Shown: positions 1 through 42,977 of the stretch, piece after piece
Position numbering within the stretch: position 1 is the stretch's first letter
How the letters are laid out: the number at the start of each line of letters is the position of its first letter
Assembly: GCA_009797885.1 (NCBI GenBank)
Contig: WNKP01000003.1
Location: forward strand, 248,001 to 312,000
DNA from: Flavobacteriaceae bacterium GF1
GTDB taxonomy: Bacteria > Bacteroidota > Bacteroidia > Flavobacteriales > Flavobacteriaceae
Length of the DNA stretch: 64,000 bases
Direction of reading: 5' to 3'
Made by a program: the position numbers and the translations under genes
Notes under the pieces: generated by a model
Told to the model about the DNA's origin: nothing
The model's database searches: none
The model's input: only the letters and a program-made list of their open reading frames with translations

Positions 1-675
1 GTTGGCCTTGGCCAACATGAACCAGGAATTGCTCCCCTTTTTGTGCCCTTGTACCTTTATTCTTGCCTGTTTCCCTTTTCCGGTCATTGCCGTGGGCAAT
101 GTCAATCGAAATAGGCCCACTCCATCTTTGTTCAAATCCCTTTTGACCAAAATATATTCCGCCATAGTGCCGTCTTCCTTGTTCAGGATTTTTAGGGTAC
201 CGTCTTCGTTTGCTATAAAGGTCAATGCCAATTGCTTATTGACAAAAACATCATAAGGCTGTCTAAGGTTTAAATCGATATTGGAATAGAAGGCAAAGGT
301 CACTGTTGGTCCGGCATGGGTTTCCGGTACGGCATTGGTCAGGAACTCAAAGTACATGACCCCGGTACTGGCCCGTGAAATCATATGTTGGTTCACTTCG
401 TCCCGAATGGAGGGATATTGGTAATCACCCCCGCCAATCTTGCTGTGGAATCCTTCGATATCATTCTTGCACATCTGATAGAGCTTGTATGCCGTATTGA
501 TCTCGTGAATGTGGTTATGGCCCCCACCTCCATGAAAGAGTACGGCCATTGCGGTTCTTTTTTCATTTTCCAATGTTGTGGGAAACCCGGCCGAATATGC
601 CCAAGGCACCGTGGCAAGAATTACCAGGCCCAACATTACATTTCTTACGCTACTGTTCATCCAATCTGTTTTCAT
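1..675 (-). CDS. Exported protein of unknown function, C-terminus cut off by window edge
   Basis: The minus strand is open from the ATG at 675 to the edge of the window, giving at least 225 residues with no stop. The N-terminus has a hydrophobic stretch (VMLGLVILATVPWAYSAG) that looks like a Sec signal peptide with cleavage after about residue 29. Visible landmarks are a glycine/histidine run (HGGGGHNHIHE) and a beta-rich part after residue 100. I do not recognise the family; a beta-sandwich accessory domain of a larger secreted hydrolase is possible but is only a guess. It is the last visible gene of the minus-strand catabolic operon, 49 bases after the mannonate dehydratase stop, so it probably shares that gene's LacI control. 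Being exported, it may act on the polymer or oligosaccharide that feeds the pathway. Confidence 0.7.
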   Translation of the reverse strand, partial: MKTDWMNSSVRNVMLGLVILATVPWAYSAGFPTTLENEKRTAMAVLFHGGGGHNHIHEINTAYKLYQMCKNDIEGFHSKIGGGDYQYPSIRDEVNQHMISRASTGVMYFEFLTNAVPETHAGPTVTFAFYSNIDLNLRQPYDVFVNKQLALTFIANEDGTLKILNKEDGTMAEYILVKRDLNKDGVGLFRLTLPTAMTGKGKQARIKVQGHKKGSNSWFMLAKAN

Positions 676-724: not shown

Positions 725-1789
725 TCAATCGTCATTTAAATGTGAAATGGCCGCTTTCATATAACCCATGGCATAGGCCATACCGGCATGCCAGGGGGCA
801 TTACAGGTCATTTGTGGGGTATGATCGGGAATCAAGACCCCTTTAAAATTGTTCTTCTTTAAAATCCTTAGGATTCTGAACATGTCCATATCGCCCTCAT
901 CCACAAAAACCTCCCTGTAGCTAGGGACCTTACCCACGATATTCCTAAAGTGGACGTAACTAATTTTTCCTTGCCGGCTATAGGTGTCGGTAGCCTCGTA
1001 CACATCCCCTTCGGTCATTTCGGCTATGGAACCCAAACAGAATTCCAAATTGTTTGACGGGCTAGGGTTCATATCAAGCAATCTTTGATACATATGGGGT
1101 TGGTATACCAATCTTGGGGTTTCCCTCACAAAGGGCATGGGGGGATCATCCGGGTGGGCAGCCATCTGGACACCCGCTTCTTCGGCCACCGGTAGGATTT
1201 CGTTCAAAAAGTACCCTAGCCTTTCCCAGAGTTCGTTGTGGTCAATTTTGGGCAAGATACCTTCCGGAGCACTTTCATCATATACCATATTCCAGACCAT
1301 GCCGTTGGGTATTGGTGTGGTATCCACCCCTTCCATGCCCACGGAAACCGCACCACCCCTGGCATATGGACCCTGCATACGTGAAGACACCCCCGCCAAG
1401 GAAAAGTTGTACCCAAACACGGGGATGCCTGCCTTACCCGCATTGCGGATAAGCTGTTTGAGATTTTCCATTTGGCTTTGTTTTTTGGGACCATCCAAAA
1501 GAATATCGTACCAATGGGCAGGGTCAAAATTCTCGATGCCCTCCAGTTCAAGCCCATGGGAATTGATTTCCTTTTTTAGGGCCTTCAACTCCCCATAGGT
1601 CCATATTTCATTTGGATTTCCCGCTTTGCCCCAACCTTTTTTATCTCCTATGGGCTGATTCGCGTTGTCTTTGTTATGGCCAAAATAATCCACCAAATGA
1701 ATGACCAAATGTGTGGCTCCACATTGCTTGGCAAACTTGTAATGTGCTTCATTGAGCATATGTCTGTATAATCCGAATCCTAATTTCAT
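725..1789 (-). CDS. uxuA: Mannonate dehydratase (UxuA-like)
   Basis: 354 residues, the usual size of the shorter UxuA forms. UxuA dehydrates D-mannonate to 2-keto-3-deoxy-D-gluconate in the cytosol with a divalent metal in a TIM barrel. The metal site can be read off: His212 (AAHPDDPP), Cys251 (EFCLGS), His280 (YVHFRNI) and Asp322 (PDHTPQM). The spacing closely matches the His-Cys-His-Asp site known for the family. The C-terminal APWHAGMAYAMGY is also a family hallmark. It starts 2 bases after the CoA-transferase stop, so the two genes are coupled. Next to a lactonase, an SDR and an aldolase-like protein it would be the dehydration step of an oxidative hexose route. Action on another aldonate cannot be excluded. 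The start is unambiguous, with no in-frame upstream alternative before the preceding stop. Confidence 0.88.
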   Translation of the reverse strand: MKLGFGLYRHMLNEAHYKFAKQCGATHLVIHLVDYFGHNKDNANQPIGDKKGWGKAGNPNEIWTYGELKALKKEINSHGLELEGIENFDPAHWYDILLDGPKKQSQMENLKQLIRNAGKAGIPVFGYNFSLAGVSSRMQGPYARGGAVSVGMEGVDTTPIPNGMVWNMVYDESAPEGILPKIDHNELWERLGYFLNEILPVAEEAGVQMAAHPDDPPMPFVRETPRLVYQPHMYQRLLDMNPSPSNNLEFCLGSIAEMTEGDVYEATDTYSRQGKISYVHFRNIVGKVPSYREVFVDEGDMDMFRILRILKKNNFKGVLIPDHTPQMTCNAPWHAGMAYAMGYMKAAISHLNDD

Positions 1790-1791
1790 TT

Positions 1792-2997
1792 CTATTCCAT
1801 TTCTGTAATGAATTGATTGATTTTATCTTCTGAATAGCCACAAAACTCTTTCAGGATGTCTTTTGCATTTTCGTTCAACAAGGGAGCAGGCTTATAAATC
1901 TTTTGGGGGGTGTCGCTAAACCATACAGGGAAGCCCGTTGTCCTTACCTTTCCTGCTTTTGGGTGGTCTATTTCTATAATCATATTGTTGTGTTTTATTT
2001 GGGGGTCTTTCACCATTTCATCAAACGTGTTTACTTGGGAGCACCAAATATCCCTTTCCAAAAGGATGTCCAACCATTCTTTGGTGGTCCTGGTCCTGAA
2101 CACGGCATCAAAGTCCGAACGGATTTCATCCCTACCTTCCATAATATTGTTGGAGGCATACTCCTCCGAATCGTATTTTTTTGCCCCAATGGCCTGAGCC
2201 AGTTTTTGTACAGGGTTCATACCGATGGCGATATAGCTGTCCTGGGTGTGATAAATTCCATAGGGCGCACCCAACCATGGATTGGGGATACCACTTTCGC
2301 TTCGTTCGGGATTTTCGCCTTTGTGCAAATAGGCCGTAACTTCCTGAATATGGAACCCAACCACCGAATTGAGTAGGTTGGTCTCTATTTTTTGTCCTTT
2401 ACCTGTAGCGCTTCGGGAATGGATGGCCGCCAAAACGGATTGATTAATGAATAAACTAGTCAATAAATCGGCCTGCCCAACAGCTGTAACCATGGGCATG
2501 TCACCTTTTTTACCGTTCAATGCGGCACCCCCTCCCATGGATTGTGCCAATAAATCTTGACCGGGCCTTTGCAGATAGGGGCCGGAACCCCCATAACCTG
2601 AACTTGAGCAATAGATTAAACCAGGGTTAAGCTGTTTCATATCCGCATAGCCCAGCCCCAGTCTTTCCATGACCCCGGGACGGAAGTTTTCAATCAGAAT
2701 ATCTGCTTTAGAAATAATGGCTTTTGCAATGTCATGGCCTCTAGGGTCTTTGAGATTTAAGGCAATACTTCTTTTGTTCCTGTTAAAGCTCAAGAACGAA
2801 ATACTCTCGCCATTCGGATACATATTTCCATACGAATAATGTCGCATCCAATCCCCTTTTTGGGGTTCGATTTTGATGATATCGGCCCCCATATCGCCCA
2901 ACATCTGTGTCGCCCACGGGCCTTGTGCCAGCTGGGTGAAATCGGCTACAACCAATCCTTTTAAGGGGCCATTATTTTCTGTAGTGTTGTTTGCCAT
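1792..2997 (-). CDS. Class III CoA-transferase (CaiB/BaiF family)
   Basis: 401 residues. Family III CoA-transferases move CoA between carboxylic acids through an aspartyl-anhydride intermediate. Visible hallmarks are the opening LVVADFTQLAQGPWATQMLG, GADIIKIEPQKGD, IENFRPGVMERLGLGY, and Asp177 in VGQADLLTS, at the position of the nucleophile (Asp169 in formyl-CoA transferase). Acceptor and donor cannot be read from sequence. A LacI-type operator (3003-3016) ends 6 bases before the ATG, and the gap to the upstream lactonase stop is only 28 bases, so this gene probably has its own repressed start or a roadblock site. Together with the enoyl-CoA hydratase two genes upstream it implies a CoA-activated intermediate in what is otherwise a sugar-acid cluster, which is unusual. 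Confidence 0.88.
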   Translation of the reverse strand: MANNTTENNGPLKGLVVADFTQLAQGPWATQMLGDMGADIIKIEPQKGDWMRHYSYGNMYPNGESISFLSFNRNKRSIALNLKDPRGHDIAKAIISKADILIENFRPGVMERLGLGYADMKQLNPGLIYCSSSGYGGSGPYLQRPGQDLLAQSMGGGAALNGKKGDMPMVTAVGQADLLTSLFINQSVLAAIHSRSATGKGQKIETNLLNSVVGFHIQEVTAYLHKGENPERSESGIPNPWLGAPYGIYHTQDSYIAIGMNPVQKLAQAIGAKKYDSEEYASNNIMEGRDEIRSDFDAVFRTRTTKEWLDILLERDIWCSQVNTFDEMVKDPQIKHNNMIIEIDHPKAGKVRTTGFPVWFSDTPQKIYKPAPLLNENAKDILKEFCGYSEDKINQFITEME

Positions 2998-3002
2998 AGT
3001 TA

Positions 3003-3016
3003 CTAAATCGGTTTAG
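3003..3016. promoter_or_regulatory. LacI-family operator upstream of the CoA-transferase
   Basis: CTAAATCGGTTTAG is a near-perfect 14-bp palindrome with the central CG typical of LacI-family operators. It lies 6 bases before the CoA-transferase ATG. The same sequence recurs exactly at 9977-9990, with variants at 11049 and 11105. Confidence 0.8.
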
Positions 3017-3025
3017 CTAAGTCAT

Positions 3026-4078
3026 TCAGTTTAGAAATGTGATACACACCGGTGATAAAATTTCCTTGGTGCTGTATACCTCATCCAATGTTCCGTCCAG
3101 TAGAATTCGATAGACCACCATATCATGGGAATTTTGATGGCCTACAATGAGCCACCGACCATCTGGAGTGATATTGAATTCACGTATTTCTTCTCCTTGG
3201 GTATACTGATATCCCACACACACCAACCCATTTTCCAAAACCTGAAAAATGGTCAACAGTTCAGCACCCCTATTGGCCGTATACAGGTATTTGCCACCTG
3301 GGTGAAGTCTTATGGCGGAAGCGCTTGGTAGTCCCGTGTAATTATCCGGTAGGGAGTTGTAGGTAGCCATTTCCTGAAAAATACCTTCGTTCTCCTGTAC
3401 TACGGAAACCTTACCGCTTAATTCATTGAGTACATAGCCTAAGCTTCCTTTGGCATTGAATACCATATGTCGAGGTCCACCACCTTTGGAAACCGCAATA
3501 TCTTTGTCGGCATTGGAAACCAGTTGATCTTCCTGTAATCGATAGGCTTTTATGGTATCAATACCGAGGTCGCATACATAAATATCCACTTTATTGGGGT
3601 GTATTATTACCTGATGTGCGTGCGGTCCTTCTTGCCGGGCTTCATTTATACTTGCTCCTTGATGTCGGTATTCTTTCACGGAAGGCAATAGGCTTCCAGA
3701 GGCATCCAGTGGGTATTGAATCACATTGCCCGTGGCATAACAGGCCAGCAAAATGTTGTTTTCATGGACGCTAAGGTGACAGGGATACCCTCCTGAAATG
3801 GACTGTTCATTGCTGAATTCCAATGAAAGATCGGATTTTACTTTGTAGGCCTGTACTTTTGGATGCGCATTTGCATCGAGTTCCGTGAGGCAGTACAGGA
3901 ATCGGTTATCATTCCGTAGCGCCAAATAGCTCGGGTTCCGTACCATTTTGGTATGCAATGTGGTCAACTCCCCTGTATCCGTATTCAACTGCACTGTATA
4001 GATGCCTTTACCGATACCCCCAAATCCGGGAATTGGATATTCCGTATAGCTGCCCACAAAAAACGTTAACTGTCCCAT
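3026..4078 (-). CDS. Seven-bladed beta-propeller lactonase (6-phosphogluconolactonase/YbhE family)
   Basis: 350 residues, standard for the lactonase family (COG2706) represented by E. coli YbhE/Pgl. Family traits are the opening FFVGSYTEYP, repeated propeller strands, GPHAHQVIIHPN near the middle, GGGPRHMVFN, and GLPSASAIRLHPGGKYLYTANRG. Members hydrolyse sugar lactones to aldonates. There is no signal peptide, so it should act in the cytosol. Its start is 1 base from the enoyl-CoA hydratase stop, so it is translated as part of the operon. Beside an SDR and a mannonate dehydratase, the simplest substrate would be a hexono-lactone such as mannonolactone, but the family is broad and the phosphorylation state is unknown. 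Confidence 0.85.
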   Translation of the reverse strand: MGQLTFFVGSYTEYPIPGFGGIGKGIYTVQLNTDTGELTTLHTKMVRNPSYLALRNDNRFLYCLTELDANAHPKVQAYKVKSDLSLEFSNEQSISGGYPCHLSVHENNILLACYATGNVIQYPLDASGSLLPSVKEYRHQGASINEARQEGPHAHQVIIHPNKVDIYVCDLGIDTIKAYRLQEDQLVSNADKDIAVSKGGGPRHMVFNAKGSLGYVLNELSGKVSVVQENEGIFQEMATYNSLPDNYTGLPSASAIRLHPGGKYLYTANRGAELLTIFQVLENGLVCVGYQYTQGEEIREFNITPDGRWLIVGHQNSHDMVVYRILLDGTLDEVYSTKEILSPVCITFLN

Positions 4079-4079
4079 C

Positions 4080-4847
4080 TTATGTTTTATCTATAAAATC
4101 CTGAATAGCTTTTTTGGCTTCAGCCCCGTAAAAGAGGTGGGATACCGTTTTGCCCTCTTCAGTTATTTTCTGGTGAAAGGGTAGGGGCGATAGGCTCAAA
4201 TGGGCCAATCGTTTCAATTCTTTTAAGGCGCCCAATGGCCTGCGGGTCAATTTTTGGGCAAAACGGAGTACCTCGGCATCAAATTCATGGGTTTGGTAAA
4301 CATGGTTGACAATGCCCCATTCGTATAGCACGGATGTCGTATATTGCCCTCCCGTGAACAACATTTCCTTGGCCCTATTGATTCCAATTCTTTGAATCAA
4401 ACGTTGGGTACCTCCACCACCTGGGACCAGACTCAGGAAAACTTCGGGGAGCCCCATTTTTGCTGTTTCCGAAGCCAAAATCATGTCACACGACAGGGCA
4501 ATTTCGAACCCCCCACCTAGGGCGTATCCGTTAACCGCAGCAATCCAGGGCTGTGGTGCGTTTTCGATGGAATCATAGAGTTGTATACCCCTGTCCTGGA
4601 ACGCTTTGAACTGCTCCGGGGTTTGGCTTCCGTATTCTTTGATATCGGCCCCTGCCATAAAAGCCCGTCCCTGGCCCGTGATGATTGCAACATGCACTCG
4701 ATCATCGGCATTGATGGTTTCAATGCCATCAATGATTTCGTCCATCATTTCCCGGTTCATTGCATTGAGCTGTTCCGGTCGATTGAAACGTAAGGTGGCC
4801 ACGTTTTTTGAAATGTCCGTTGTAATATGTGTATAGGTTTTGCCCAT
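4080..4847 (-). CDS. Enoyl-CoA hydratase/isomerase family protein (crotonase fold)
   Basis: 255 residues, normal for a single-domain crotonase. The oxyanion-hole segments (AFMAGADIKEYG and ALGGGFEIALSCD) are present. So are both catalytic glutamates of true hydratases: Glu115 (GGGFEIAL) and Glu135 (GLPEVFLSLVPGGGGTQRL), 20 residues apart as in rat enoyl-CoA hydratase (144/164). Activity as a hydratase or dehydratase on an acyl-CoA is therefore likely. It lies 1 base from the gene on each side, within the LacI-controlled operon. No acyl-CoA dehydrogenase or thiolase is nearby, so it is not part of ordinary beta-oxidation. More likely it handles the CoA ester made by the CoA-transferase at 1792-2997. 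Confidence 0.88.
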   Translation of the reverse strand: MGKTYTHITTDISKNVATLRFNRPEQLNAMNREMMDEIIDGIETINADDRVHVAIITGQGRAFMAGADIKEYGSQTPEQFKAFQDRGIQLYDSIENAPQPWIAAVNGYALGGGFEIALSCDMILASETAKMGLPEVFLSLVPGGGGTQRLIQRIGINRAKEMLFTGGQYTTSVLYEWGIVNHVYQTHEFDAEVLRFAQKLTRRPLGALKELKRLAHLSLSPLPFHQKITEEGKTVSHLFYGAEAKKAIQDFIDKT

Positions 4848-4848
4848 T

Positions 4849-6000
4849 TTAATTTAAGGATTGGTACAATTGATTTAATTCCTTGACGACTTTGGACGAA
4901 TCCATGGTTTCAAGCAGCCCCTTATGTAGTAGGTCCGCCCCTTCTTCTTGAAACAGGTTCCATCCTTTGTGTTGTGGTCGTACATATGCGTTTTCCATGG
5001 TTTTTAGCGTGTTGACAAAAAAATTGTTGCATAATTCATTATTGCCTTTCGCATGCCATGCCACAAGGTTCGCAGGCTGCCCACCATTTGCCGTGAAAAT
5101 TCCCTTCTGGGTTTCTGCCCGGGCTACGTATTCCGTATAGGCCACTGCCTCATCTGCGTATTGGCATTTTGATGAAATGGCCAAACCAACCCCTCCCAAT
5201 ATGGTGGAAACGGAATGCTTCGGATTGGTGGGACTATCACTAAAATGAACCAGATTTTGGGCATAGCCCGTTCTGGAGTAATTGGTATATCCAAAGAGGA
5301 AAGGAACATAAACAATCTCGTCCATTGCCCCCATATGATCTAAAACCTGTATGGGATTCCAGGTCAAGGAATCCGGATGCAGGAAATCCAGGTGGTGCTT
5401 GAGTTCATCCAAAACACGACTTCCCACTTTTTCATCCATTTCCCTATCCTTGATGAAATGACCCCCTGTATCCTGGGCACAAAGGGTCAGGAACGTACAC
5501 CAAAGATCGGTGGCACATAAGGGCCATGCCACTGCATGGCCTTGAGGTATTTTTTTATAAAAATCAAATAGTTCTTTCCTTGTTTGGGGAAGTCCCAATT
5601 GCCATTTGGATAGTAATTCCTTTCGTGACGCCGCAACCAATGCAGCGGCATCAATTGGTAGCGCAAGCAGTGCTTCATTGTGGAAATACGACCTAAAACT
5701 TGGCCCAACCGATTGTTCTTCCAAAGCATTCAAAACAGTTTTGGGCAATCGTTCTTGTAAGGACAGCAACAGTCCATCGGCGAAGGCTTGTCCCATATAG
5801 GGATGGTCGATGGTAATCAAATCATAGGTTTCCATTAGGTCTGCTATGGGCATATCACCAAATTCCTTTAGGGTCCGGACATACCATTCAATTAGGACAT
5901 TGGGGTACAACTCGGCAAATGCCCTTGAGGTGGCCCTAAGGGGGTCATATCCCCTTGGGTGATCCCATGCTATCCCCTTCAATCTAATTATTGCTGACAT
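4849..6000 (-). CDS. Solute-binding-protein fold (ABC sugar SBP-like) without signal peptide
   Basis: 383 residues resembling extracellular solute-binding proteins of carbohydrate ABC transporters: FAELYPNVLIEWYV near the N-terminus, DLITIDHPYMGQAFADG, an alanine-rich LPIDAAALVAAS segment, and a C-terminal AVAYTEYVARAETQKGIF helix pair. It begins directly with the mature-type first strand (IIRLKGIAWDHPRGYDPL). There is no Sec signal, lipobox or room for an upstream start, because an SDR stop lies 13 bases before. No ABC permease or ATPase is in the cluster. It is therefore probably a cytosolic ligand-binding protein, or an enzyme or sensor derived from an SBP. It sits tightly between the enoyl-CoA hydratase and the SDR. 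The exact role is unknown. Confidence 0.72.
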   Translation of the reverse strand: MSAIIRLKGIAWDHPRGYDPLRATSRAFAELYPNVLIEWYVRTLKEFGDMPIADLMETYDLITIDHPYMGQAFADGLLLSLQERLPKTVLNALEEQSVGPSFRSYFHNEALLALPIDAAALVAASRKELLSKWQLGLPQTRKELFDFYKKIPQGHAVAWPLCATDLWCTFLTLCAQDTGGHFIKDREMDEKVGSRVLDELKHHLDFLHPDSLTWNPIQVLDHMGAMDEIVYVPFLFGYTNYSRTGYAQNLVHFSDSPTNPKHSVSTILGGVGLAISSKCQYADEAVAYTEYVARAETQKGIFTANGGQPANLVAWHAKGNNELCNNFFVNTLKTMENAYVRPQHKGWNLFQEEGADLLHKGLLETMDSSKVVKELNQLYQSLN

Positions 6001-6013
6001 TGTGTACCAAGGT

Positions 6014-6814
6014 TCATGCGTTATTTCTTTTAGGTCTGGGGTCGTACTGTACCGTATGGTTCATATAAGCCCCATCTACATAGAGGTCGGCCCCGTTAAC
6101 ATAGCTGGCAAGGTCACTGGCCAGAAAGGCCACCGTATTGGCCACATCCTTTACGTTGCCAATTCTACCCTGGGGAATCCATTTTTCAAACTTATGTTTG
6201 CCGAATTTGGCTATTTCGGACCGGTTCATGTTCGTTTCTATTGCTCCAGGTGCCACCGAAACTACCCGAATGTTCATATCGGCCAGTTCCAACGACAGGC
6301 ATTTGGAGAACATTTTCAGACCCGCCTTGGCCGAACAATAGTGGATAAGCCCCTTTCTGGGTATGGCGTCGTGAATGGAAGATATGTTAATGATGACTCC
6401 ACCTCCATTTTTTTCCATTCGTCTGCCCGCCTGTTGGGAACAGAGGAAAGGACCCTTTAAGTTAACCTGGACCACCCTGTCCCATTCCGTTTCTTCCATA
6501 TCCAACACATGGACCACACTTTCACTACCTGCATTATTGATCAAAATGTTGGGACTCCCAATCGCAGTGTCCATTTCAAGAAACATAGCCTCCACTTCCT
6601 TTGCATCGCCCACATTGGCACCTCCACAGGCAACATTCACTCCATATTCACTGCGTATTTCTTCTGCCAGTGCCTCTGCTTTATCCCTATTGCTATAATA
6701 GTTAATGAACACATTTGCGCCGCAGGCCGCCATTGTTCTACAGATTTCGGCACCTATTCCCTGGCTTCCTCCTGTAACCAGGACATTTTGCTTGGATAAA
6801 TCTATTTTCATCAT
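6014..6814 (-). CDS. SDR-family NAD(P)-dependent oxidoreductase
   Basis: 266 residues, a classical short-chain dehydrogenase. It has the cofactor motif TGGSQGIG (14-21), NNAG (93-96), catalytic Ser145/146 (INISSI), Tyr159 and Lys163 (HYCSAKAG), and the PGAIETNM loop. The N-terminus is cytosolic. Sugar 1-dehydrogenases and FabG-like reductases share this layout, so the substrate cannot be told from motifs. In this cluster (lactonase, mannonate dehydratase, aldolase-like gene) oxidation of an aldose to its lactone is the most economical role. Oxidation of a hydroxyacyl-CoA made by the hydratase is an alternative. The ATG overlaps the stop of the upstream cupin gene by 4 bases. Confidence 0.87.
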   Translation of the reverse strand: MMKIDLSKQNVLVTGGSQGIGAEICRTMAACGANVFINYYSNRDKAEALAEEIRSEYGVNVACGGANVGDAKEVEAMFLEMDTAIGSPNILINNAGSESVVHVLDMEETEWDRVVQVNLKGPFLCSQQAGRRMEKNGGGVIINISSIHDAIPRKGLIHYCSAKAGLKMFSKCLSLELADMNIRVVSVAPGAIETNMNRSEIAKFGKHKFEKWIPQGRIGNVKDVANTVAFLASDLASYVNGADLYVDGAYMNHTVQYDPRPKRNNA

Positions 6815-7245
6815 TTCACCAATGGTTTTTGACCGGCCAAATCAAATAGTGCATTGACCTTGTTCTTTAATTCCATTCGTTTGTGCTGCGTAAGTTGGTA
6901 AAACTCAAAGTCGGAAAGATGGGTATCCGCTTTTTCGGCAATAAGCACCTGACTCCCTTCCCTCATGGCAATGTTGTGCCAGGTATTTTTAGGGACATTA
7001 TAGAGTTTGTTATGTTCCATCAGCTCCAATTCAAACTCAGGTTCACCGTTTACCAATATGGCTGCAATCAAGACCGCATCCCCCTCCAAGGCTACAAAAA
7101 CCTCATCGGTTTTTAAATGGACATCCAGTTTGGCAATACGATCAATATGCTGCTCTTCCATAAAGTTCAGTTGGGCCAACTGCCATCCTTCCCGTATCAA
7201 AAAAGGGTGGTATCCCTTTTCCATAATGTTAAATGTTTCAATCAT
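6811..7245 (-). CDS. Small cupin-like protein (paralogue of the 9469-9885 gene)
   Basis: 144 residues with a single beta-barrel-like pattern: LDVHLKTDEVFVALEGDAVLIAA, then NVPKNTWHNIAM and a short acidic end. This is the two-motif pattern of small cupins, with some metal-binding positions (His in KLDVHLKTDE and NTWHNI) kept. It shares HPFLIR..WQ..(L/K)LN at its N-terminus with the other cupin in the operon, so the two are duplicated or divergent partners. A sugar-acid isomerase, epimerase or lactone-handling role is possible but unproven. Its 3' end overlaps the SDR by 4 bases and its start overlaps the MFS gene by 8 bases, so it is certainly part of the operon. Confidence 0.75.
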   Translation of the reverse strand: MIETFNIMEKGYHPFLIREGWQLAQLNFMEEQHIDRIAKLDVHLKTDEVFVALEGDAVLIAAILVNGEPEFELELMEHNKLYNVPKNTWHNIAMREGSQVLIAEKADTHLSDFEFYQLTQHKRMELKNKVNALFDLAGQKPLVK

Positions 7246-8734
7246 TTATGCTCGGATTTTGACCTTTAAAAACGTTTTCACCATTGGTTGTGCTTACTTT
7301 TCCACGCCAATATTTTTCTATTTCCTCCAGGGTCCTGCCCTTGGTCTCCGGAACAAATTTCCATATGAACCCAATGGCCGGAAGTGTCAGAAGGGCATAA
7401 ATGAAGAATGTGCCGGATGCTTCCACGGTCTCAATCAAAATCGGATTGGTCAAGGTGATGACAAACCCGGTGACCATCAATGACAGGCTACCCAAGGAAA
7501 CGGCCAACCCCCGTATACGGGTTGGAAAAATTTCACTAATGATTACCCATACAATAGGACCGAACGAGAAGGCAAAACTGGCTACATACAGCAGCAGGGG
7601 AATGATCACAAATTGTGAACCCAGGGCAAATAATACGCCTACACCAAACAATGAAATGAACGCTCCGGTGACCCCTATCAACAGGAGCTTTCTTCTACCA
7701 AACTTTTCAATGTTCGCTATGGCCACAAAAGTAAAGGCGCTATTTACGACACCGACGAGGACGGCTCCCAAAAAAGCACTTTCAACACTTTGTATGGATT
7801 CGTTGATAATGTTGGGGGCAAAATACATAATGGCGGCAATACCACTCAAGTGTGAGAACATTGGAAGTAGGACACCGATCAAAAGGGGTATGCGTAAAAA
7901 CGGTTTGAAAAGTTCTTTGAATCCCGCGTTGTCTTCCTTGACCATATCCTTTATTTCGGCCAGTTTTGATGTTGCGTACGCCACTCCATTGATTTTTGCC
8001 ATGATTGCTTCGGCTTCTTCATACCTTCCTTTGGTGATAAGCCATCTTGGGGTTTCCGGTACCGTAAACAATAGTGTAAGGAACAATAGGGCTATGGGAA
8101 TCTCCGTACCAAACATGCCCCGCCATAGCTCGTCTACAAATAACCAGTTCCACAGGCCGGAGGATTCGTCCGATATGACACCTGCGGCCTCCCCAGCTTG
8201 ATTGAGCACCAACCAATCGACCAAAAAGGCCAAAAGGATACCCAGGGTTATGGAGAGTTGGTACAAAGAGACCATTTTGCCCCGATTTTCCGGTAGTGCG
8301 AGTTCCGCTATATAAATGGGTGCTACCACAGAGGTTATTCCTACGCCAATACCCCCAACAATACGTACCCCAACCAATACATTAAAAGCAAAGTTGGCAT
8401 CCGCAGTGAACCAGACCGCATTCTCCAAATCACCCAAAAATTGTGGGGGCAACATGGAACCCAGTGCTGATATGGTGAGACAGGTAGCGGCAAGGATGAG
8501 CGCTTTTTTTCTTCCTAATGCATCGGTAATGGTCCCGGCAACAATGCACCCAAAAATGGTCCCCAATAATGCCGATGAAACCACCCAGCCGAGTGTTGTG
8601 GCCGATAATTCAAAGTGCTGTTGCAAAAAGGTGTTGCAGCCCGAAATAATTGCAGTATCATATCCAAAAAGGAATCCCCCAATGGTGGAGACAAAACTGA
8701 TGACCAGTAAATAATTCGATTTTTTAGATTTCAT
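7238..8734 (-). CDS. Sugar porter family MFS transporter (XylE-like)
   Basis: 498 residues and about 12 membrane segments. Sugar-porter signatures are GYDTAIISG in helix 1, GRKKALILAA after helix 2, PETPRWLI at the end of the first half, and PETKGRTLEEIE after helix 12. These proteins bring monosaccharides across the inner membrane by proton symport. It is the only importer in the LacI operon and presumably delivers the sugar oxidised by the SDR/lactonase/dehydratase set. An insertion of about 35 residues between helices 5 and 6 (WLVLNQAGEAAGVISDESSG) is longer than in E. coli XylE but is seen in Bacteroidota members. Confidence 0.92.
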   Translation of the reverse strand: MKSKKSNYLLVISFVSTIGGFLFGYDTAIISGCNTFLQQHFELSATTLGWVVSSALLGTIFGCIVAGTITDALGRKKALILAATCLTISALGSMLPPQFLGDLENAVWFTADANFAFNVLVGVRIVGGIGVGITSVVAPIYIAELALPENRGKMVSLYQLSITLGILLAFLVDWLVLNQAGEAAGVISDESSGLWNWLFVDELWRGMFGTEIPIALLFLTLLFTVPETPRWLITKGRYEEAEAIMAKINGVAYATSKLAEIKDMVKEDNAGFKELFKPFLRIPLLIGVLLPMFSHLSGIAAIMYFAPNIINESIQSVESAFLGAVLVGVVNSAFTFVAIANIEKFGRRKLLLIGVTGAFISLFGVGVLFALGSQFVIIPLLLYVASFAFSFGPIVWVIISEIFPTRIRGLAVSLGSLSLMVTGFVITLTNPILIETVEASGTFFIYALLTLPAIGFIWKFVPETKGRTLEEIEKYWRGKVSTTNGENVFKGQNPSIND

Positions 8735-8767
8735 AATTACTATTCCAAAAACGATATCCGGATTCGG

Positions 8768-9472
8768 TTACATAATGCCGAATTTTTCAAAAGCTTCAAC
8801 CGTGCTCATGCCATTTTCCAGGGCTTTTTTGACCAATTGTTCCCCTCTTGCCTTTTCTATGGCCCCACTAAAGGCTTTGGTTTCCACTTCTTTGGGGACC
8901 ACAAGAACACCATCCCGATCGCCATAAATAATGTCTCCAGGATGTATTCTTGTGCCTTCAATTTCAATGGGAACCCGATAGTCGATCACTTTTCCCCTGG
9001 GGCCCTGGTCCTGGGCATAACCCCCATACGAAAAGGTAGGGAACCCGAGCTTCAGTATTTCCTGTGTATCCCTGGACCATCCATGAAGTACTGCGCCCGT
9101 AGCTTCCAGTTTTATGGCCCTGGTACTCATTAATCCTCCCCAAAGTGCATAGTTGGGTGACGCTCCGGTACAGATGTATACTTCATTTTTCCTGAGACTG
9201 TCCAATGCTTCGAACATGAGTCCAAAAGGTTTCTCCATAAGGGGATTTTTGGTGTCTTTTGAAACCTCGGTAAATACATCGGCCTCTAAAACGGTCATGG
9301 CCCTGCCTATTACTACAAAATCATCATTCAAAGGTTTTATGCTTGGGGGCAGGAATTGGTGTTCGTATCCGAGCTTGTCCAAAATATCCCCCACCAAAGC
9401 CACAAATAGCTCTGTTTTGGCAATTTTGAAAAGTTCATCGTCGTTTTTCCACAAGGATTTACTAGTGCTCAT
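8768..9472 (-). CDS. RraA-like protein (HMG/CHA aldolase family)
   Basis: 234 residues. The RraA fold is visible in LVGDILDKLGYEHQFLPP, VIGRAMTVLEAD, GAVLHGWSRDTQEILKLGFP (Arg-Asp of the active site) and the signature PGDIIYGDRDGVLVVPKE. Although named for the RNase E regulator, this family in catabolic operons usually consists of class II retro-aldolases or decarboxylases that release pyruvate from 4-hydroxy-2-keto acids. Its place in a sugar-acid operon makes cleavage of a 2-keto acid more likely than RNase regulation. It is the second gene of the operon, and its ATG overlaps the stop of the upstream cupin by 4 bases. Confidence 0.85.
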   Translation of the reverse strand: MSTSKSLWKNDDELFKIAKTELFVALVGDILDKLGYEHQFLPPSIKPLNDDFVVIGRAMTVLEADVFTEVSKDTKNPLMEKPFGLMFEALDSLRKNEVYICTGASPNYALWGGLMSTRAIKLEATGAVLHGWSRDTQEILKLGFPTFSYGGYAQDQGPRGKVIDYRVPIEIEGTRIHPGDIIYGDRDGVLVVPKEVETKAFSGAIEKARGEQLVKKALENGMSTVEAFEKFGIM

Positions 9473-9885
9473 GACCGATCTTTTAGTGCTTGATAAATAT
9501 GTTCTTGTATTGTTTTTACCTGTTCTTTGTCCAAATACTGGTGTGTGGTATCGTCGGTATGCGTATTGGGCCTTTCTACGCTAAACAGTTCACCACCTTT
9601 TTGCATGACAATGGCATAGCCATGGTTCTTGGGAACATTGTAGGCCGTTCCGCGCTCCATCACCATAATATGGTAGTTGTTATTATCGCCAACTGTGATC
9701 AACACGCCCTTACCTTTGAGCAATGACAATGCCCTATCCGTATGGTGATGTATGGTAAGGCGACTCAGATTATTGATATGGTGCTCCGCAACGTTATAGT
9801 TCAACTTGCCCACTTGCCAGCTATCCCTTATCAAGAAAGGATGAAAACCGGCTTCTTCTATGCGATATCGCTCCAATAAATCCAT
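9469..9885 (-). CDS. Small cupin-like protein, first gene of the catabolic operon
   Basis: 138 residues, paralogous to the product of 6811-7245: same opening (GFHPFLIRDSWQVGKLNY), then LTIHHHTDRALSLLKGKGVL and NVPKNHGYAIVM. It keeps a His-rich first motif (IHHHTD) but lacks the second-motif His found in its partner (NTWHNI versus NHGYAI), so metal binding may differ. It is the first gene after the operator at 9977-9990 and overlaps the RraA-like gene by 4 bases. Function is unknown; the pair may form a heteromeric enzyme or supply two related isomerisation steps. Confidence 0.75.
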   Translation of the reverse strand: MDLLERYRIEEAGFHPFLIRDSWQVGKLNYNVAEHHINNLSRLTIHHHTDRALSLLKGKGVLITVGDNNNYHIMVMERGTAYNVPKNHGYAIVMQKGGELFSVERPNTHTDDTTHQYLDKEQVKTIQEHIYQALKDRS

Positions 9886-9976
9886 ATCAAGAGTGGTTTT
9901 TAAACATGCTTAAATCGTTGGACATGTTATGCTGAAATAATAAAATTGCTTCTTCCATTTGGTTTATTGTTTGTAA

Positions 9977-9990
9977 CTAAATCGGTTTAG
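9977..9990. promoter_or_regulatory. LacI-family operator controlling the catabolic operon
   Basis: CTAAATCGGTTTAG, identical to the site at 3003-3016, lies 92 bases upstream of the first operon gene (ATG at 9885) and 23 bases downstream of the lacI stop. The flanks extend the symmetry (AACTAAATCGGTTTAGTTAA), which makes this the most extended of the copies. Confidence 0.82.
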
Positions 9991-10012
9991 TTAATATGTC
10001 TAAAATGTCTTC

Positions 10013-11035
10013 CTAAACCGATCCACACGATCTGCGTATGGCCAGTTCAATATTCAGTACCCTACCCATTTGTGTTAAGGGAGCATCCCCTTTAATTTTA
10101 TCCATCAAAATATCGACGGCCACATTCCCGATATCCGCGGCGGGTTGGGTCACAGCCGTAATGGCTGGATCGGTAAGGTCAAAGGCCTCCAATTCATCAA
10201 AACTTACAATGGCCACTTCCTGGGGCACCTTGATATTAAGGCGTTTCAATTCCCTTAGTCCCGCAGCGGTCAAATAGTGTGTTGCAAAAACTAGGGCATC
10301 AACAGCATTGGGAAACTGAACCAGTTGCTTTATCCCATTTACCGTCTCTTCTTCGTAATTTTCACGACTTACCTCATGGATCAGTTCGTCAATAGGTTCA
10401 ATCCCAAAAATTTCTAGGGCCTTTTGATACCCCAATAAGCGTTGCCGAATGACTTCCAGACCTGGTTTTAGGGTTACAAAACCTATTTTTCGCCTCCCCA
10501 ATGACAGCAGATGTGCCGTTGCTTTTTTGGTTCCTTCAAAATTGTCGACAATGACATAATCGGTCTCGTTATCGGGATAGTGCCGATCGATAAGGACAAA
10601 GGGGAAGTCGTTCGCCTTCAAGGACTGAATCTCTTCCCGGTTTTGCTGCGTAGAGGCGATGATTAAACCATCTACTTGGCGATTGAGCATGGATTGTATG
10701 AGTTCCCCCTCCTTTTTTGGATCTTCATAAGAGCTACTGAAAATAACCGTGTATCCAAGTTTTTTGGCTTTTCTTTCGATAAAACCTGCAATTCTGGCGT
10801 AAAAAATATCCGAAATGTTGGGAATCACCAGGCCTATGGTCTCACTTTTCCCCCGACTGAGGCCTCGTGCAAGTTGATTGGGTACATAGCTATGCTCCTT
10901 GGCATAGGCGATTATTTTTTGCTGGGTATCCTGACTAATTTTGTTCTCGTCCCCTTTGTTGTTAAGCACAAGGGAAACGGTTGTTTTTGAAACATTCAAG
11001 TCTTTGGCGATATCTTTTAAGAATACCCTCTTCAT
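10013..11035 (-). CDS. LacI-family transcriptional regulator
   Basis: 340 residues. The N-terminal helix-turn-helix (KDIAKDLNVSKTTVSLVLN, residues 6-24) and hinge helix (YVPNQLARGLSRGKSETIG) are followed by a periplasmic-binding-protein-type sensor domain (about 60-335, with DGLIIAST, DNFEGTKKATAHLLSLG and VAIVSFDELEAFDLTDP). It should repress in the absence of a sugar ligand. Two copies of the 14-bp operator lie just upstream of its own ATG, and others lie before the downstream operon, so it almost certainly autoregulates and controls the adjacent genes. The weak site before 13355 suggests it may also govern the mannosidase operon. Confidence 0.95.
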   Translation of the reverse strand: MKRVFLKDIAKDLNVSKTTVSLVLNNKGDENKISQDTQQKIIAYAKEHSYVPNQLARGLSRGKSETIGLVIPNISDIFYARIAGFIERKAKKLGYTVIFSSSYEDPKKEGELIQSMLNRQVDGLIIASTQQNREEIQSLKANDFPFVLIDRHYPDNETDYVIVDNFEGTKKATAHLLSLGRRKIGFVTLKPGLEVIRQRLLGYQKALEIFGIEPIDELIHEVSRENYEEETVNGIKQLVQFPNAVDALVFATHYLTAAGLRELKRLNIKVPQEVAIVSFDELEAFDLTDPAITAVTQPAADIGNVAVDILMDKIKGDAPLTQMGRVLNIELAIRRSCGSV

Positions 11036-11048
11036 ATCAACAATTTGA

Positions 11049-11062
11049 CTAAACCGGTTTAG
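11049..11062. promoter_or_regulatory. LacI-family operator, perfect palindrome, at lacI start
   Basis: CTAAACCGGTTTAG is a perfect 14-bp palindrome, 13 bases before the lacI ATG. It is the best match to a symmetric LacI half-site pair in the window and implies autorepression. It forms a pair with the site at 11105, centre-to-centre 56 bp. Confidence 0.85.
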
Positions 11063-11104
11063 TTGCTTATGAAATAAAAAAGCCCTATTAAGCTATCAAT
11101 AAAA

Positions 11105-11118
11105 CTAAAGCGGTTTAG
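11105..11118. promoter_or_regulatory. Second LacI-family operator upstream of lacI
   Basis: CTAAAGCGGTTTAG, one central base away from full symmetry. Together with 11049-11062 it could allow cooperative binding or looping. The rest of the 273-base gap 11036-11308 holds AT-rich sequence that probably contains the lacI promoter; I see no gene there. Confidence 0.75.
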
Positions 11119-11308
11119 GAATGCCCAAACTTAGGAAAAAAAATGGAATTCATTGTTTTTTTAACAAAAAAATGCGTCTTTCTTAAAAATAGGGGGCATT
11201 GGAGGGTAAATCTTTAAATGAAGGAATTGGCCGTGTCCTGAAAGAATGGTGTGTTTGGTTGAGGACGTTATTTTTATGGTTTGGTAATAGGTCCATCTTT
11301 AAAGGGGT

Positions 11309-15598: not shown

Positions 15599-15616
15599 AA
15601 AGACTGCGGTTAAGAT

Positions 15617-17494
15617 ATGGATGTAATAGATAGCTCAATTATAGTAATCTATGTTTTGCTGACCCTTCTCGTTGGAATTTGGGTATCCAAAAAGGCTTCC
15701 AAAGGGCTCGATTCCTATTTTTTGGGAGGGAAGAATATTAAGTGGTACTATCTCGGTCTTAGTAATGGATCGGGAATGTTCGATGTTTCGGGAACCACTT
15801 GGATGGTGGGGATGTTGTTCCTGTATGGAGCCAAAAGCTTTATGCATATGTGGTTATGGCCCGTGTTCAATCAAGTTTTTCTCATGATGTTTTTGGCCGT
15901 TTGGATCAGGCGTTCCAATATCATGACCGGATCGGAATGGATCTTAACCCGGTTTGGGGACGGAAAGGCCGGTAGGGCATCGCATAGTATCATTGCCATC
16001 TTCGCTGTCATATCCGCCGTAGGGTTTATAGCGTATTTCTTTGAAGGGGTGGGCAAGTTTTTGATGATCATACTGCCTTGGAACATTCCTTTGGAACTGG
16101 GGGATGTGCTTTTATTGACCTCTGAACAGTCCTATGCCCTGATCATTATAGCGCTGACCACGATTTATACGGTAAAAGGAGGGATGTTTTCGGTGGTAGC
16201 CACAGAAGTTTTGCAATACATTATCATGGTCATTGCCGGTGTTCTCATCGCGGGATACGCTTTTTTTGCCATTAGTGATGTAGAGATCAATGCCGTAATC
16301 TCAGAAGAATGGCGGACCATTTTTTTCGGTTCGGAATTGGGTACACATTGGGACGCAAAATTTAAGGCCTTTGATGATTTGATCGATACCCAAGGGTATA
16401 AGATGTTTGGGGCATTTGTCGGCATGTCACTTTTAAAGGGGTTTTTCGCCAGCATTGCGGGACCAGTGCCCAGTTTTGACTTTCAGCGGATTTTGTCCAC
16501 AAGAACCGTTAAGGAAGCCGCCTATATGAGTGGGTTTACCAATTTGGTACTTTATATCCCCCGATACCTTTTAATATCGGGAATTGTTGTGATTGCCCTG
16601 GTAGTATTGGCACCGGAAATAGGTACGGCCTCTAGCTTGTCCAGTGACGATTTGGAAGTGATATTGCCCAAAATAGTGAACAACCATATTCCTGTTGGAA
16701 TCAAAGGTTTGTTACTGGCAGGGCTTTTGGCCGCCTTTATGTCCACGTTTTCTGCTTTTGTCAATGCCAGTTCGGCCTACATCGTTAATGATATTTATAA
16801 AAAATATTTTAAACCCAAAGCCTCCAACAAGCATTATGTAAAAACTAGTCACATTGCCTCATTTGCAGTCGTGGCTTTGGGGGTATTCATGGGCTTTTTT
16901 GCAGAATCCATCAATTCATTGACGTTATGGATAACCAGTGCATTGTTTGGAGGATATGTCGCGGCTAATTTTTTAAAATGGGTTTGGTGGCGATTTAATG
17001 GGTGGGGCTACTTTTGGGGGATGTTGGCAGGCCTTTTTATCGCTACGACCTTGTTTTTTCTAGACCAAAACAAAACTTATTATGTGGAAGGTTCCGTGTT
17101 GTATCAAATAGCACACACACAGGCCATTTACCTTTTTCCGCTCATTTTTGGTTTTTCCCTTTTGGGGTGTTATTTAGGTACTTATTTTACAAAACCTACC
17201 GATATCAATGTTTTAAAATCCTTTTATGGAAGCGTCAAACCCTGGGGATGGTGGAAACCGGTCTATACCCTATTGAAGGCAGAAGACAGTTCCTTTGAAA
17301 AGAATACTGATTTTTGGCTGGATATGATAAACTGCGTTATAGGAATTGTGTGGCAATCCAGTATGATCCTACTGCCCATTTATCTGTTGATTAGGGACTA
17401 TCCCAAAACCCTAATCGCTTTGATTGTGTTTTTGGCAACCTCCTTGATTTTAAAATACACCTGGTTGGACCGGGTTAAAAAAATACCCAATTGA
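15617..17494 (+). CDS. Sodium:solute symporter (SSS family)
   Basis: 625 residues with about 14 membrane segments. SSS traits are IVIYVLLTLLVGIWVSKKASKGLDSYFLGG at the N-terminus (first helix and the following loop), the unwound-helix region GLSNGSGMFDVSGTTW, and IKGLLLAGLLAAFMSTFSAFVNASSAYIVNDIY in helix 8/9. These are the hallmark segments of SGLT-like sodium-coupled sugar transporters. It is 18 bases after the first GH92 gene and 45 before the GH130 gene. The likely job is uptake of mannose or of the Man-GlcNAc disaccharide that the cytosolic GH130 enzyme needs. Confidence 0.9.
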   Translation: MDVIDSSIIVIYVLLTLLVGIWVSKKASKGLDSYFLGGKNIKWYYLGLSNGSGMFDVSGTTWMVGMLFLYGAKSFMHMWLWPVFNQVFLMMFLAVWIRRSNIMTGSEWILTRFGDGKAGRASHSIIAIFAVISAVGFIAYFFEGVGKFLMIILPWNIPLELGDVLLLTSEQSYALIIIALTTIYTVKGGMFSVVATEVLQYIIMVIAGVLIAGYAFFAISDVEINAVISEEWRTIFFGSELGTHWDAKFKAFDDLIDTQGYKMFGAFVGMSLLKGFFASIAGPVPSFDFQRILSTRTVKEAAYMSGFTNLVLYIPRYLLISGIVVIALVVLAPEIGTASSLSSDDLEVILPKIVNNHIPVGIKGLLLAGLLAAFMSTFSAFVNASSAYIVNDIYKKYFKPKASNKHYVKTSHIASFAVVALGVFMGFFAESINSLTLWITSALFGGYVAANFLKWVWWRFNGWGYFWGMLAGLFIATTLFFLDQNKTYYVEGSVLYQIAHTQAIYLFPLIFGFSLLGCYLGTYFTKPTDINVLKSFYGSVKPWGWWKPVYTLLKAEDSSFEKNTDFWLDMINCVIGIVWQSSMILLPIYLLIRDYPKTLIALIVFLATSLILKYTWLDRVKKIPN

Positions 17495-17539
17495 CCTTTT
17501 GGTTCAAGAATGGGGATGAATCTCTAAACCTGATGAACA

Positions 17540-18505: not shown

Positions 18506-18507
18506 CC

Positions 18508-22980: not shown

Positions 22981-22981
22981 T

Positions 22982-25303: not shown

Positions 25304-25311
25304 TTCGGGCC

Positions 25312-42967: not shown

Positions 42968-42977
42968 CGACACTCAA

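Follow-up and report, generated by a model that had tools for sequence, protein, structure and literature searches.

Several described routes break down sugars or hydroxy acids with enzymes of the kinds discussed here. The oxidative pathways for L-rhamnose and L-fucose consist of a dehydrogenase, a lactonase, a dehydratase, a 4-dehydrogenase and an FAH-type hydrolase. In carnitine metabolism, the class III coenzyme A (CoA)-transferase CaiB and a crotonase, CaiD, (de)hydrate a hydroxy acid as its CoA thioester. For mannose, a cascade from Thermoplasma acidophilum works in vitro in a cell-free system, from which a pathway was proposed, and the part of that 2019 paper considered here states that a mannose-specific oxidative pathway had not yet been discovered (PMC6901390). 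Here we describe an operon at one end of a 64,000-nucleotide stretch of DNA from Flavobacteriaceae bacterium GF1, most of whose relatives are marine (assembly GCA_009797885.1, contig WNKP01000003.1, positions 248,001 to 312,000), which we refer to as the window. From its genes, we consider it somewhat probable that this operon encodes an oxidative, Entner-Doudoroff-like breakdown of D-mannose derived from N-glycans or alpha-mannans under its own LacI repressor.

The operon is a minus-strand run of ten contiguous open reading frames (ORFs; 725-9885) behind the lacI gene at 10013-11035. In the order of transcription, it encodes a cupin, an RraA-like protein, a sugar porter of the major facilitator superfamily (MFS), a second cupin, a short-chain dehydrogenase/reductase (SDR), a protein with the fold of a solute-binding protein (SBP), a crotonase, a propeller lactonase, a class III CoA-transferase (CaiB1) and a UxuA-like protein, with intergenic gaps of -8 to 33 nt. 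The features of the window on which the argument draws are as follows.

11104..11119, no strand: LacI operator, the distal of two before lacI; one of four sites in the genome with at most one mismatch
11048..11063, no strand: LacI operator before lacI, the perfect palindrome ACTAAACCGGTTTAGT
10013..11035, minus strand: LacI-family repressor (Pfam LacI and Peripla_BP), with two operators directly upstream
9976..9991, no strand: LacI operator before the first operon gene; the same type of site stands before the first genes of relatives
9469..9885, minus strand: cupin paralogue of 138 residues, without a Pfam or NCBIfam match and named by clustering with the second cupin
8768..9472, minus strand: RraA-like protein of the class II pyruvate-aldolase fold (Pfam, 108.6 bits; G-x20-R-D at residue 113)
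7238..8734, minus strand: MFS sugar porter of the XylE type (Sugar_tr, 361 bits; TIGR00879, 338 bits against a cut-off of 237.8)
6811..7245, minus strand: second cupin, with a predicted fold like 3d0j (function unassigned; Foldseek TM 0.89)
6014..6814, minus strand: SDR, candidate mannose 1-dehydrogenase (Pfam/NCBIfam; NNAG, INISS and YxxxK motifs)
4849..6000, minus strand: SBP-fold protein of the CoA module (Pfam SBP_bac_8; AF2 model), apparently without a signal peptide
4080..4847, minus strand: crotonase/enoyl-CoA hydratase of the CoA module (Pfam; catalytic Glu115 and Glu135 kept)
3026..4078, minus strand: seven-bladed propeller lactonase (Pfam, 293.7 bits; PDB 3fgb, 177 bits)
3002..3017, no strand: internal LacI operator in the 28-nt gap between the lactonase and CaiB1 genes
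1792..2997, minus strand: class III CoA-transferase CaiB1 of the CoA module (Pfam, 369.4 bits; catalytic Asp in RPGQD)
725..1789, minus strand: divergent UxuA-like protein, candidate mannonate dehydratase (Pfam UxuA, 183.2 bits against a gathering threshold of 23.7; metal-site residues)
1..675, minus strand: 5' part of a GH38-type gene (1204 codons in total), the remainder lying beyond the window edge
13355..29444, plus strand: neighbouring N-glycan locus with four GH92 genes, an SSF symporter, GH130, CBM9, GHL10 and GH85

An earlier note, made from the sequence alone, had described this run as a LacI-controlled operon. The ten contiguous ORFs and the LacI gene are indeed present, and four operators support the proposed control. 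It named seven of the ten genes, namely those for UxuA, the class III CoA-transferase, the propeller lactonase, the enoyl-CoA hydratase, the SDR, the sugar porter and the RraA-like protein, all of which were matched by Pfam or NCBIfam, and left the SBP-fold protein and the two cupins unnamed. The metal site that it had called complete was found at His212, Cys251, His280 and Asp322, which align with mannonate dehydratases in the PDB, and the crotonase said to be hydratase-competent retains both glutamates. The four GH92 genes next door also proved correct (13355, 20707, 22982 and 27207).

In the scheme that we propose, mannose would enter by the MFS porter, the SDR would oxidise it at C1 to mannonolactone, the propeller lactonase would open the lactone to D-mannonate, and the UxuA-like enzyme would dehydrate D-mannonate to 2-keto-3-deoxygluconate (KDG). 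A KDG-kinase-like protein together with a 2-keto-3-deoxy-6-phosphogluconate (KDPG) aldolase, both encoded beyond the window edge, would then convert KDG into pyruvate and glyceraldehyde 3-phosphate; RraA may also cleave KDG directly, without prior phosphorylation. The observations comprise the genes and their arrangement, the operators, the co-occurrence, the predicted folds and the catalytic motifs; every substrate and reaction of this scheme is our inference. The SDR could act on several sugars, judging from its sequence, and the RraA-like G-x20-R-D pattern is found in 51 of 58 sequences, including that of the window.

The association with mannose comes from a comparison of related loci. The comparative set consisted of the best 80 of 270 loci by similarity to the UxuA-like protein, drawn from named genomes, among which related species are not independent. 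The ORFs of these loci were clustered, and the family names rest on one Pfam-scanned representative per cluster, with SusC, SusD and some others read from the sequence; the labels SDR, MFS and cupin are broad. Co-occurrence was counted in those 59 loci that extend 8.5 kb or more upstream, with SDR plus RraA as the core. The core was present in 43 of them, 42 of which also have GH38, GH92, GH76, GH85 or MGH1-like genes, compared with 2 of the 16 other loci. These are alpha-mannose or N-glycan families. Among the core loci, the mannosidase-type link was found in 18 of 18 without CaiB versus 24 of 25 with CaiB. Across the 80 loci, the main GH38 cluster was present in 44 and two further GH38 clusters in 6 each, GH76 in 17, two GH92 clusters in 8 and 3, GH85 in 4 and MGH1-like genes in 5.

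A second group of loci connects the UxuA-like protein to uronates. UxaC, the uronate isomerase, occurs in 8 of the 80 loci (588 bits against a cut-off of 387), and in six of them (L040, L055, L056, L061, L063 and L071) the gene order is UxaC-SDR-Nramp-like-UxuA-like, in a stretch without canonical UxuA. In these 6 of 80 loci, the position of UxuA next to the uronate isomerase is filled by the UxuA-like protein. When canonical UxuA was searched for in five of the six genomes with such a locus, one (G298) had no match (its completeness is not given) and held just two weak-type UxuA copies like that of the window. RraA, found in 57 of 80 loci, is present on the mannose side as well as in four of the six uronate-type loci, and a KDG-kinase-like gene and a KDPG aldolase gene occur together in 7 of 80. 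Mannonate and KDG are the nodes common to mannose-type and uronate-type loci. The source genome itself has an RraA and UxuA-like pair of another subfamily behind UxaC-like and SDR genes (C33:432153-442735), so the RraA/UxuA-like pairing recurs. The lactone step varies. An M24-peptidase-like gene is present and the propeller lactonase absent in seven loci (L041, L042, L066 and L072-L075, one of them a 3.6-kb fragment), the two are never found together, and other loci have neither; the M24-peptidase-like protein may be an unrecognised lactonase. A plasmid of Microvirga ossetica (L131) encodes an SDR, an SMP-30 lactonase, two UxuA-family proteins, both below the NCBIfam cut-offs, RraA, an aldose epimerase and a sugar importer of the ATP-binding cassette (ABC) type, as well as an SBP-fold protein but no CaiB; mannosidases are not among the genes annotated there. 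It is a differently built cluster of the same logic with another lactonase and transporter.

The same-strand gene run continues past the window edge in the 5.28-Mb source genome. The GH38-type gene starts 49 nt after the UxuA-like gene, with its first 675 bases inside the window, and is followed after a gap of 196 nt by genes for a second MFS porter (MFS2), a second SDR (SDR2), a second class III CoA-transferase (CaiB2), two GH3-type enzymes, a GH92 enzyme with PA14, a PfkB kinase and a KDPG aldolase. The other gaps are at most 74 nt, and a ROK kinase gene lies 277 nt after the KDPG aldolase gene. The GH38 and GH92 genes of this part were named by 86% identity to clustered relatives, and one of the two GH3-type genes was Pfam-scanned. 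The second MFS-SDR-CaiB set points to a second sugar, and the two CaiB genes of this run are the only two CoA_transf_3 matches in the source genome. The KDPG aldolase passes the curated model NF005499 (368.5 versus 275 bits), and the PfkB kinase reaches 491 bits, below the cut-off of 700, with the model of an aldolase-kinase fusion. We term it KDG-kinase-like because of its PfkB membership, its similarity to aldolase-kinase fusions and its aldolase neighbour. The dehydrogenase, lactonase, dehydratase, KDG-kinase and KDPG-aldolase families are thus encoded together in one gene run, the kinase scoring below the curated cut-offs. Further kinase and aldolase copies elsewhere in the genome mean that KDG use does not depend on this pair alone.

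These genes changed part of the earlier note. Its remark that the cluster has no KDG kinase holds only inside the window, where the absence is an artefact of the window edge, as the run goes on to a KDG-kinase-like gene and a KDPG aldolase. Because both genes are in the same run and in 7 of the 80 relatives, the pathway is probably semi-phosphorylative, and the term "non-phosphorylative" probably does not describe the main route. The order from mannose through the lactone and mannonate to KDG, which the note had suggested, is well supported by comparative genomics, with its substrates inferred.

The operators support control of the operon by its LacI repressor. Allowing up to three mismatches, the palindrome ACTAAACCGGTTTAGT was found four times in the window against 0.25 expected, and none of 100 shuffles reached four. 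With at most one mismatch in the 14-base core, the 5.28-Mb genome has four sites, all of them at this operon; the reversed control pattern gave 15 sites in the same search. The core pattern occurs 30 times in 19 of the 80 related loci (1.38 Mb) and the reversed pattern 0 times, and all 30 sites lie at most 200 nt before a gene start, compared with 18% of random positions. They precede lacI, GH38, cupin, RraA and SusC-like genes, the last named by reading the sequence and not by a scan, and one unassigned gene (L024). An operator before CaiB is kept in six loci (L008, L011, L013, L018, L028 and L029), and one stands before UxuA in L019, a locus without CaiB. Since operators lie directly before CaiB, or before UxuA in L019, CaiB and UxuA look like a separately controlled pair; the end of CaiB is at most 49 nt from UxuA in 26 of the 29 loci with CaiB. 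No operator of this LacI was found in the 19.9-kb downstream stretch. The N-glycan locus at 13 kb was considered as a member of the same regulon and rejected, the operator search there being empty.

Three genes of the operon, those for CaiB, the crotonase and the SBP-fold protein, belong to a separable and nearly all-or-none accessory module. All three were present in 25 of the 59 loci and all absent in 33, and only L019 has two of them (SBP and crotonase); among the 43 core loci, the corresponding numbers are 25 with three, 17 with none and one with two. Of two culturable relatives, Arenibacter palladensis DSM 17539 (L008) has the complete module and Maribacter polysiphoniae DSM 23514 (L009) the core without it. 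CaiB and SBP co-occur with a Fisher p of 9e-16 over the 59 loci, in which related species are not independent. The catalytic Asp pattern was recognised in 84 of 86 CaiB sequences, and the two misses read RPGQD and KPGLD, with the Asp kept. In Arenibacter palladensis (L008, 6896-8719), the crotonase and the lactonase share one open frame of 607 codons without a stop, for which a sequencing error is possible. The two genes are separate in eight other loci, -23 to 11 nt apart, and farther apart in L021. If real, such a fusion would link the lactone step with the CoA module.

The model of the SBP-fold protein (pLDDT 95.1, pTM 0.92) matches the periplasmic sugar-binding proteins MalE3 and SmoF, the latter binding sulfoquinovose, with TM values of 0.83-0.84 and Z of about 39 (Foldseek and VIA-align); a sequence search of the PDB gave weak matches only. 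Its first strand spans residues 5-12, and its match to mature MalE3 starts at model residue 4, which corresponds to chain residue 19. In the SBPs of the module, the first strand and a signature resembling GITWDHPRGY follow almost at once after the start. Within the first 40 residues, hydropathy peaks at no more than 1.51 in 28 window-type SBPs (including L045 and L048, which lack CaiB) and no more than 1.44 in 19 others, versus 1.59-2.56 in 12 true ABC SBPs of plasmid loci, a narrow-margin proxy for a signal peptide and not a predictor. The protein thus apparently has no signal peptide and would be cytoplasmic. We discarded a role in an ABC importer of this operon, as Pfam and NCBIfam find no permease or ATPase among the ten genes.

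The module is not confined to this type of operon. An SBP of this kind was found in 16 of 296 sampled genomes of the same phylum, the source genome included, with 35-41% identity to the window SBP in the other 15, and in 145 plasmid records, 90 of which are from Sinorhizobium. We considered 41 stretches of 17-21 kb (L088-L090, L092, L109-L144 and L048, without L091 and the short L093-L108), which include near-duplicates from Sinorhizobium. Their labels are broad, were derived from the annotated genes of the same 41 stretches and do not include IlvD/EDD, and CaiB was counted anywhere in a stretch, being not adjacent to SBP in L132 and L133. CaiB occurs in 38 of the 41 stretches, the exceptions being L113, L131 and L048, and 33 encode a hydratase, either a crotonase or MaoC. 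Sugar oxidoreductase labels are present in 30 and lactonase labels in 19, and 37 have at least one marker for sugar oxidation, a mutarotase or RhaT. Several gene sets recur. A Bacteroidota set reads SBP-CaiB-CaiB-SBP-Gfo/Idh-MaoC, partly with an amidohydrolase lactonase, a FAH-family enzyme and SDRs; an alphaproteobacterial set has rhamnose mutarotase, amidohydrolase, CaiB, SBP, MaoC and mostly Gfo/Idh, which is missing in one stretch; a further set combines aldose epimerase, SDR, CaiB, SBP and crotonase, with or without a FAH-family gene. In Streptomyces the set is SBP, FAH, CaiB, MaoC and aldehyde dehydrogenase (ALDH), and in Azospirillum SDR, CaiB, SBP, crotonase, FAH and ALDH.

No MR_MLE or UxuA match was found in 23 of the 25 stretches with CaiB, a hydratase and a sugar oxidoreductase, for which IlvD/EDD is not among the labels. 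RhaA, a family that leaves some rhamnose isomerases out, was matched in none of 15 genomes with the module. MR_MLE matches exist in all 15, none of them above 108.5 bits in G025 and G170, and these two genomes, which carry a Gfo/Idh-lactonase-SDR locus with the module (L110 and L111), have a single IlvD/EDD gene each, presumably the biosynthetic IlvD; UxaA and other dehydratase families lay outside this search. G202 and G222 resemble these two genomes, apart from possessing a second IlvD/EDD gene. Speaking against a replacement of known dehydratases, 9 of the 41 stretches hold an MR_MLE or UxuA match. For the operon type of the window we dropped the notion of a plain UxuA replacement, as 25 of the 59 loci hold UxuA and all three module genes.

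We tentatively suggest that CaiB converts an aldonic acid into its CoA thioester, from which the crotonase eliminates the C3 substituent, and that the SBP-fold protein binds or delivers the acid in the cytoplasm. Candidate substrates of CaiB would be mannonate, an epimer of it or an O-substituted mannonate. The thioester would acidify the C2 hydrogen of the aldonate, and the crotonase or a MaoC hydratase would expel the C3 hydroxyl (or methoxyl) to give the enol of a 2-keto-3-deoxy acyl-CoA, with the sugar acid bound by the SBP-fold protein. The analogy is with the action of CaiB and CaiD on carnitine, and the acidity of the C2 hydrogen is chemical reasoning. As for the window operon, the substrate of the module would be an acid not accepted by the UxuA-like enzyme. 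Taken more widely, CaiB, crotonase or MaoC, and a cytoplasmic SBP could conceivably form an undescribed mobile system for the dehydration of aldonates as CoA thioesters, parallel to or replacing UxuA, the enolase superfamily and IlvD/EDD in Bacteroidota, Pseudomonadota and Actinomycetota. It would be used on mannose as well as on rhamnose/fucose-like and pentose-like sugars, the SBP fold carrying the substrate in the cytosol; we hold this wider reading, too, to be doubtful. The word "mobile" here refers to presence and absence together with taxonomic spread. As to the CoA genes, the earlier note had left a choice between a branch in which CoA-ester formation activates a sugar acid and a substrate other than a plain hexose. 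The former is favoured, as the three genes are a separable module that recurs in other sugar-oxidation loci, and the latter is less favoured.

Two relatives of the SBP-fold protein stand in other surroundings. In Methylobacterium nodulans (plasmid pMNOD02, L090), a MaoC-CoA transferase-SBP-AMP-binding set lies shortly behind genes for a PdxA-like protein and a four-carbon acid sugar kinase. In L113 (G286), an SBP-fold relative without CaiB lies beside an apparent L-rhamnose isomerase/kinase/aldolase cluster, identified from its translations, and G286 has no RhaA match.

Among the alternatives, the one that survives best concerns the SBP-fold protein, which may possibly have no part in catalysis and act as a cytoplasmic sensor or sugar-binding subunit, with CaiB recruited for something else. 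The fold is that of sugar SBPs, and the three relatives without CaiB lie in sugar-gene stretches. This possibility has to be set against the presence of CaiB in 38 of 41 stretches and the nearly all-or-none occurrence of SBP with CaiB and crotonase in window-type loci.

It is rather unlikely that the CoA module serves a separate acid, such as a three-carbon compound formed by the pathway or some hydroxy acid, and shares only its regulation with the remaining genes, as in ordinary acid catabolism by CaiB and crotonase. CaiB scores best with formyl-CoA and succinate-glutarate CoA-transferase models, far below their cut-offs, the crotonase matches short-chain hydratases, and relatives include two loci with tripartite ATP-independent periplasmic (TRAP) transporters and one beside C4 acid-sugar kinase genes. 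Such an acid would not account for the sugar-oxidation, mutarotase or RhaT markers in 37 of 41 stretches, broad as these labels are, and neither a thiolase nor an acyl-CoA dehydrogenase nor an acyl-CoA ligase was found among the ten genes.

Several observations weigh against the proposed mannose pathway itself. The UxuA-like protein falls below the NCBIfam cut-offs (NF003027, 151.4 versus 191 bits; TIGR00695, 123.8 versus 199.55 bits), is 28% identical to the canonical UxuA of the source genome and reads EVFVDEGD where the canonical protein reads EANHLEGD, so that the His of this segment is missing. It represents a divergent subfamily, and four of the five searched genomes with UxaC loci also hold a canonical UxuA elsewhere. 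The SDR is unspecific, barely reaching the "glucose 1-dehydrogenase" subfamily (215.1 versus 215 bits) and having FabG as its closest solved relatives, and the propeller lactonase is not universal, being missing in the seven loci with the M24-peptidase-like gene. The PfkB kinase is below every curated KDG-kinase cut-off. The RraA-like protein is below the cut-off for all curated aldolase equivalogs, and its occurrence beside the KDG-kinase-like/KDPG-aldolase pair implies that one route is redundant or that RraA does something else. The coexistence of the UxuA-like protein and the CoA module in the window operon means that the module is no simple UxuA substitute. Finally, a proteome study of Maribacter reports expression on arabinogalactan of a mannonate dehydratase, which may be of the UxuA-like type, and takes it as a hint at sugar-acid metabolism (PMC11036162). 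Besides the UxuA-like protein of the operon and the pair mentioned above, the source genome has a third divergent UxuA-like protein beside an MGH1-like glycosidase (C44:236913-240193), in which the metal-site Asp is aligned as Gly.

The divergence of the UxuA-like protein also bears on the possibility that it is another xylose-isomerase-like TIM-barrel enzyme, for instance for a keto-sugar or the RraA product. Its additional match to AP_endonuc_2 (45.8 bits), the missing canonical His and the missed curated cut-offs would fit such an enzyme. So would the proposal, from expression data, of an alkene hydratase in lignin breakdown for a different protein annotated as UxuA whose gene adjoins that of an RraA-family aldolase, as given in the part of that 2025 paper considered here (PMC12673573). 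We nevertheless regard it as somewhat improbable, given the conserved metal-site residues, the UxuA slot beside UxaC and the KDG-processing genes that follow here and in seven relatives.

We find it still less probable that the substrate is not plain D-mannose but a substituted or different glycan sugar, which might for instance be an O-methylated mannose or be released by the two GH3-type enzymes. In that case, the CoA module would be needed because UxuA could not eliminate a blocked C3 group. Algal N-glycans can carry methylated mannose. The optional occurrence of the module among mannosidase-linked core loci and the second porter-SDR-CaiB set with two GH3-type genes in the same run are in line with this explanation. 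However, the core loci without CaiB are as closely linked to mannosidases as those with it (18 of 18 versus 24 of 25), so the core suits ordinary mannose. A chance clustering of these genes was dismissed, as the gene order is conserved across many relatives.

The two paralogous cupins (6811-7245 and 9469-9885) frame the RraA and porter genes. Pfam has nothing for either of them. The model of the second (pLDDT 91.5) matches, after 3d0j, more distant cupins, and a role of the cupins as sugar anomerase is conceivable because comparable loci elsewhere have a mutarotase or aldose epimerase. Elsewhere in the window, a 1347-residue protein (38493-42536) has FG-GAP, ASPIC/UnbV and secretion-tail domains and a weak match to the second domain of vanadium chloroperoxidase (30.4 bits), and the sole tRNA found is a tRNA-Arg (TCT) at 42894-42968.

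In the open-licence literature, judged by titles and abstracts, we found no report of such a mannose-oxidation operon in Bacteroidota and no description of a CaiB-crotonase-SBP module, and the names of aldonyl-CoAs returned no paper. The operon is a concrete candidate for a mannose-specific oxidative pathway, and in its culturable Bacteroidota relatives genes for mannosidases and N-glycan use lie next to it. Should sugar acids prove to be the substrates of the module, it would represent a new means of activating and dehydrating sugars, one that has escaped notice since the annotation of its genes points to transporter parts and fatty-acid enzymes. The solute-binding fold would then have acquired an additional, intracellular role.

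Among known systems, the operon resembles the hexuronate branch of the Entner-Doudoroff pathway (UxaC-UxuB-UxuA-KdgK-Eda), which likewise leads from mannonate through KDG to KDPG and whose UxuA-family, KDG-kinase-like and KDPG-aldolase steps are all represented in this run. Unlike in that branch, mannonate would come here from mannose oxidation by an SDR and a lactonase, not from fructuronate, and the UxuA-like protein is divergent. With the hypothesised pathway of T. acidophilum (AldT, ManD and KDGA), the operon shares a sugar dehydrogenase gene beside a mannonate dehydratase gene; it differs as one regulated bacterial operon with a lactonase, mannosidases and a CoA module. The module has the class III CoA-transferase and crotonase pair of the carnitine system but includes an SBP-fold protein and lies in sugar-oxidation loci, and its CaiB reaches 134.5 bits with the carnitine CaiB model against a cut-off of 413. 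Similar to the L-rhamnose and L-fucose pathways, five of the module stretches (L111, L112, L116, L117 and L119) carry an amidohydrolase-type lactonase, SDR and FAH-family genes. Unlike those pathways, they have no MR_MLE or UxuA match (IlvD/EDD not being among the labels) and instead have a CaiB pair, an SBP pair (one SBP in L119) and MaoC. As a whole, the operon is an oxidative Entner-Doudoroff type of sugar use, which is known in kind, and it is the module that could prove categorically new.

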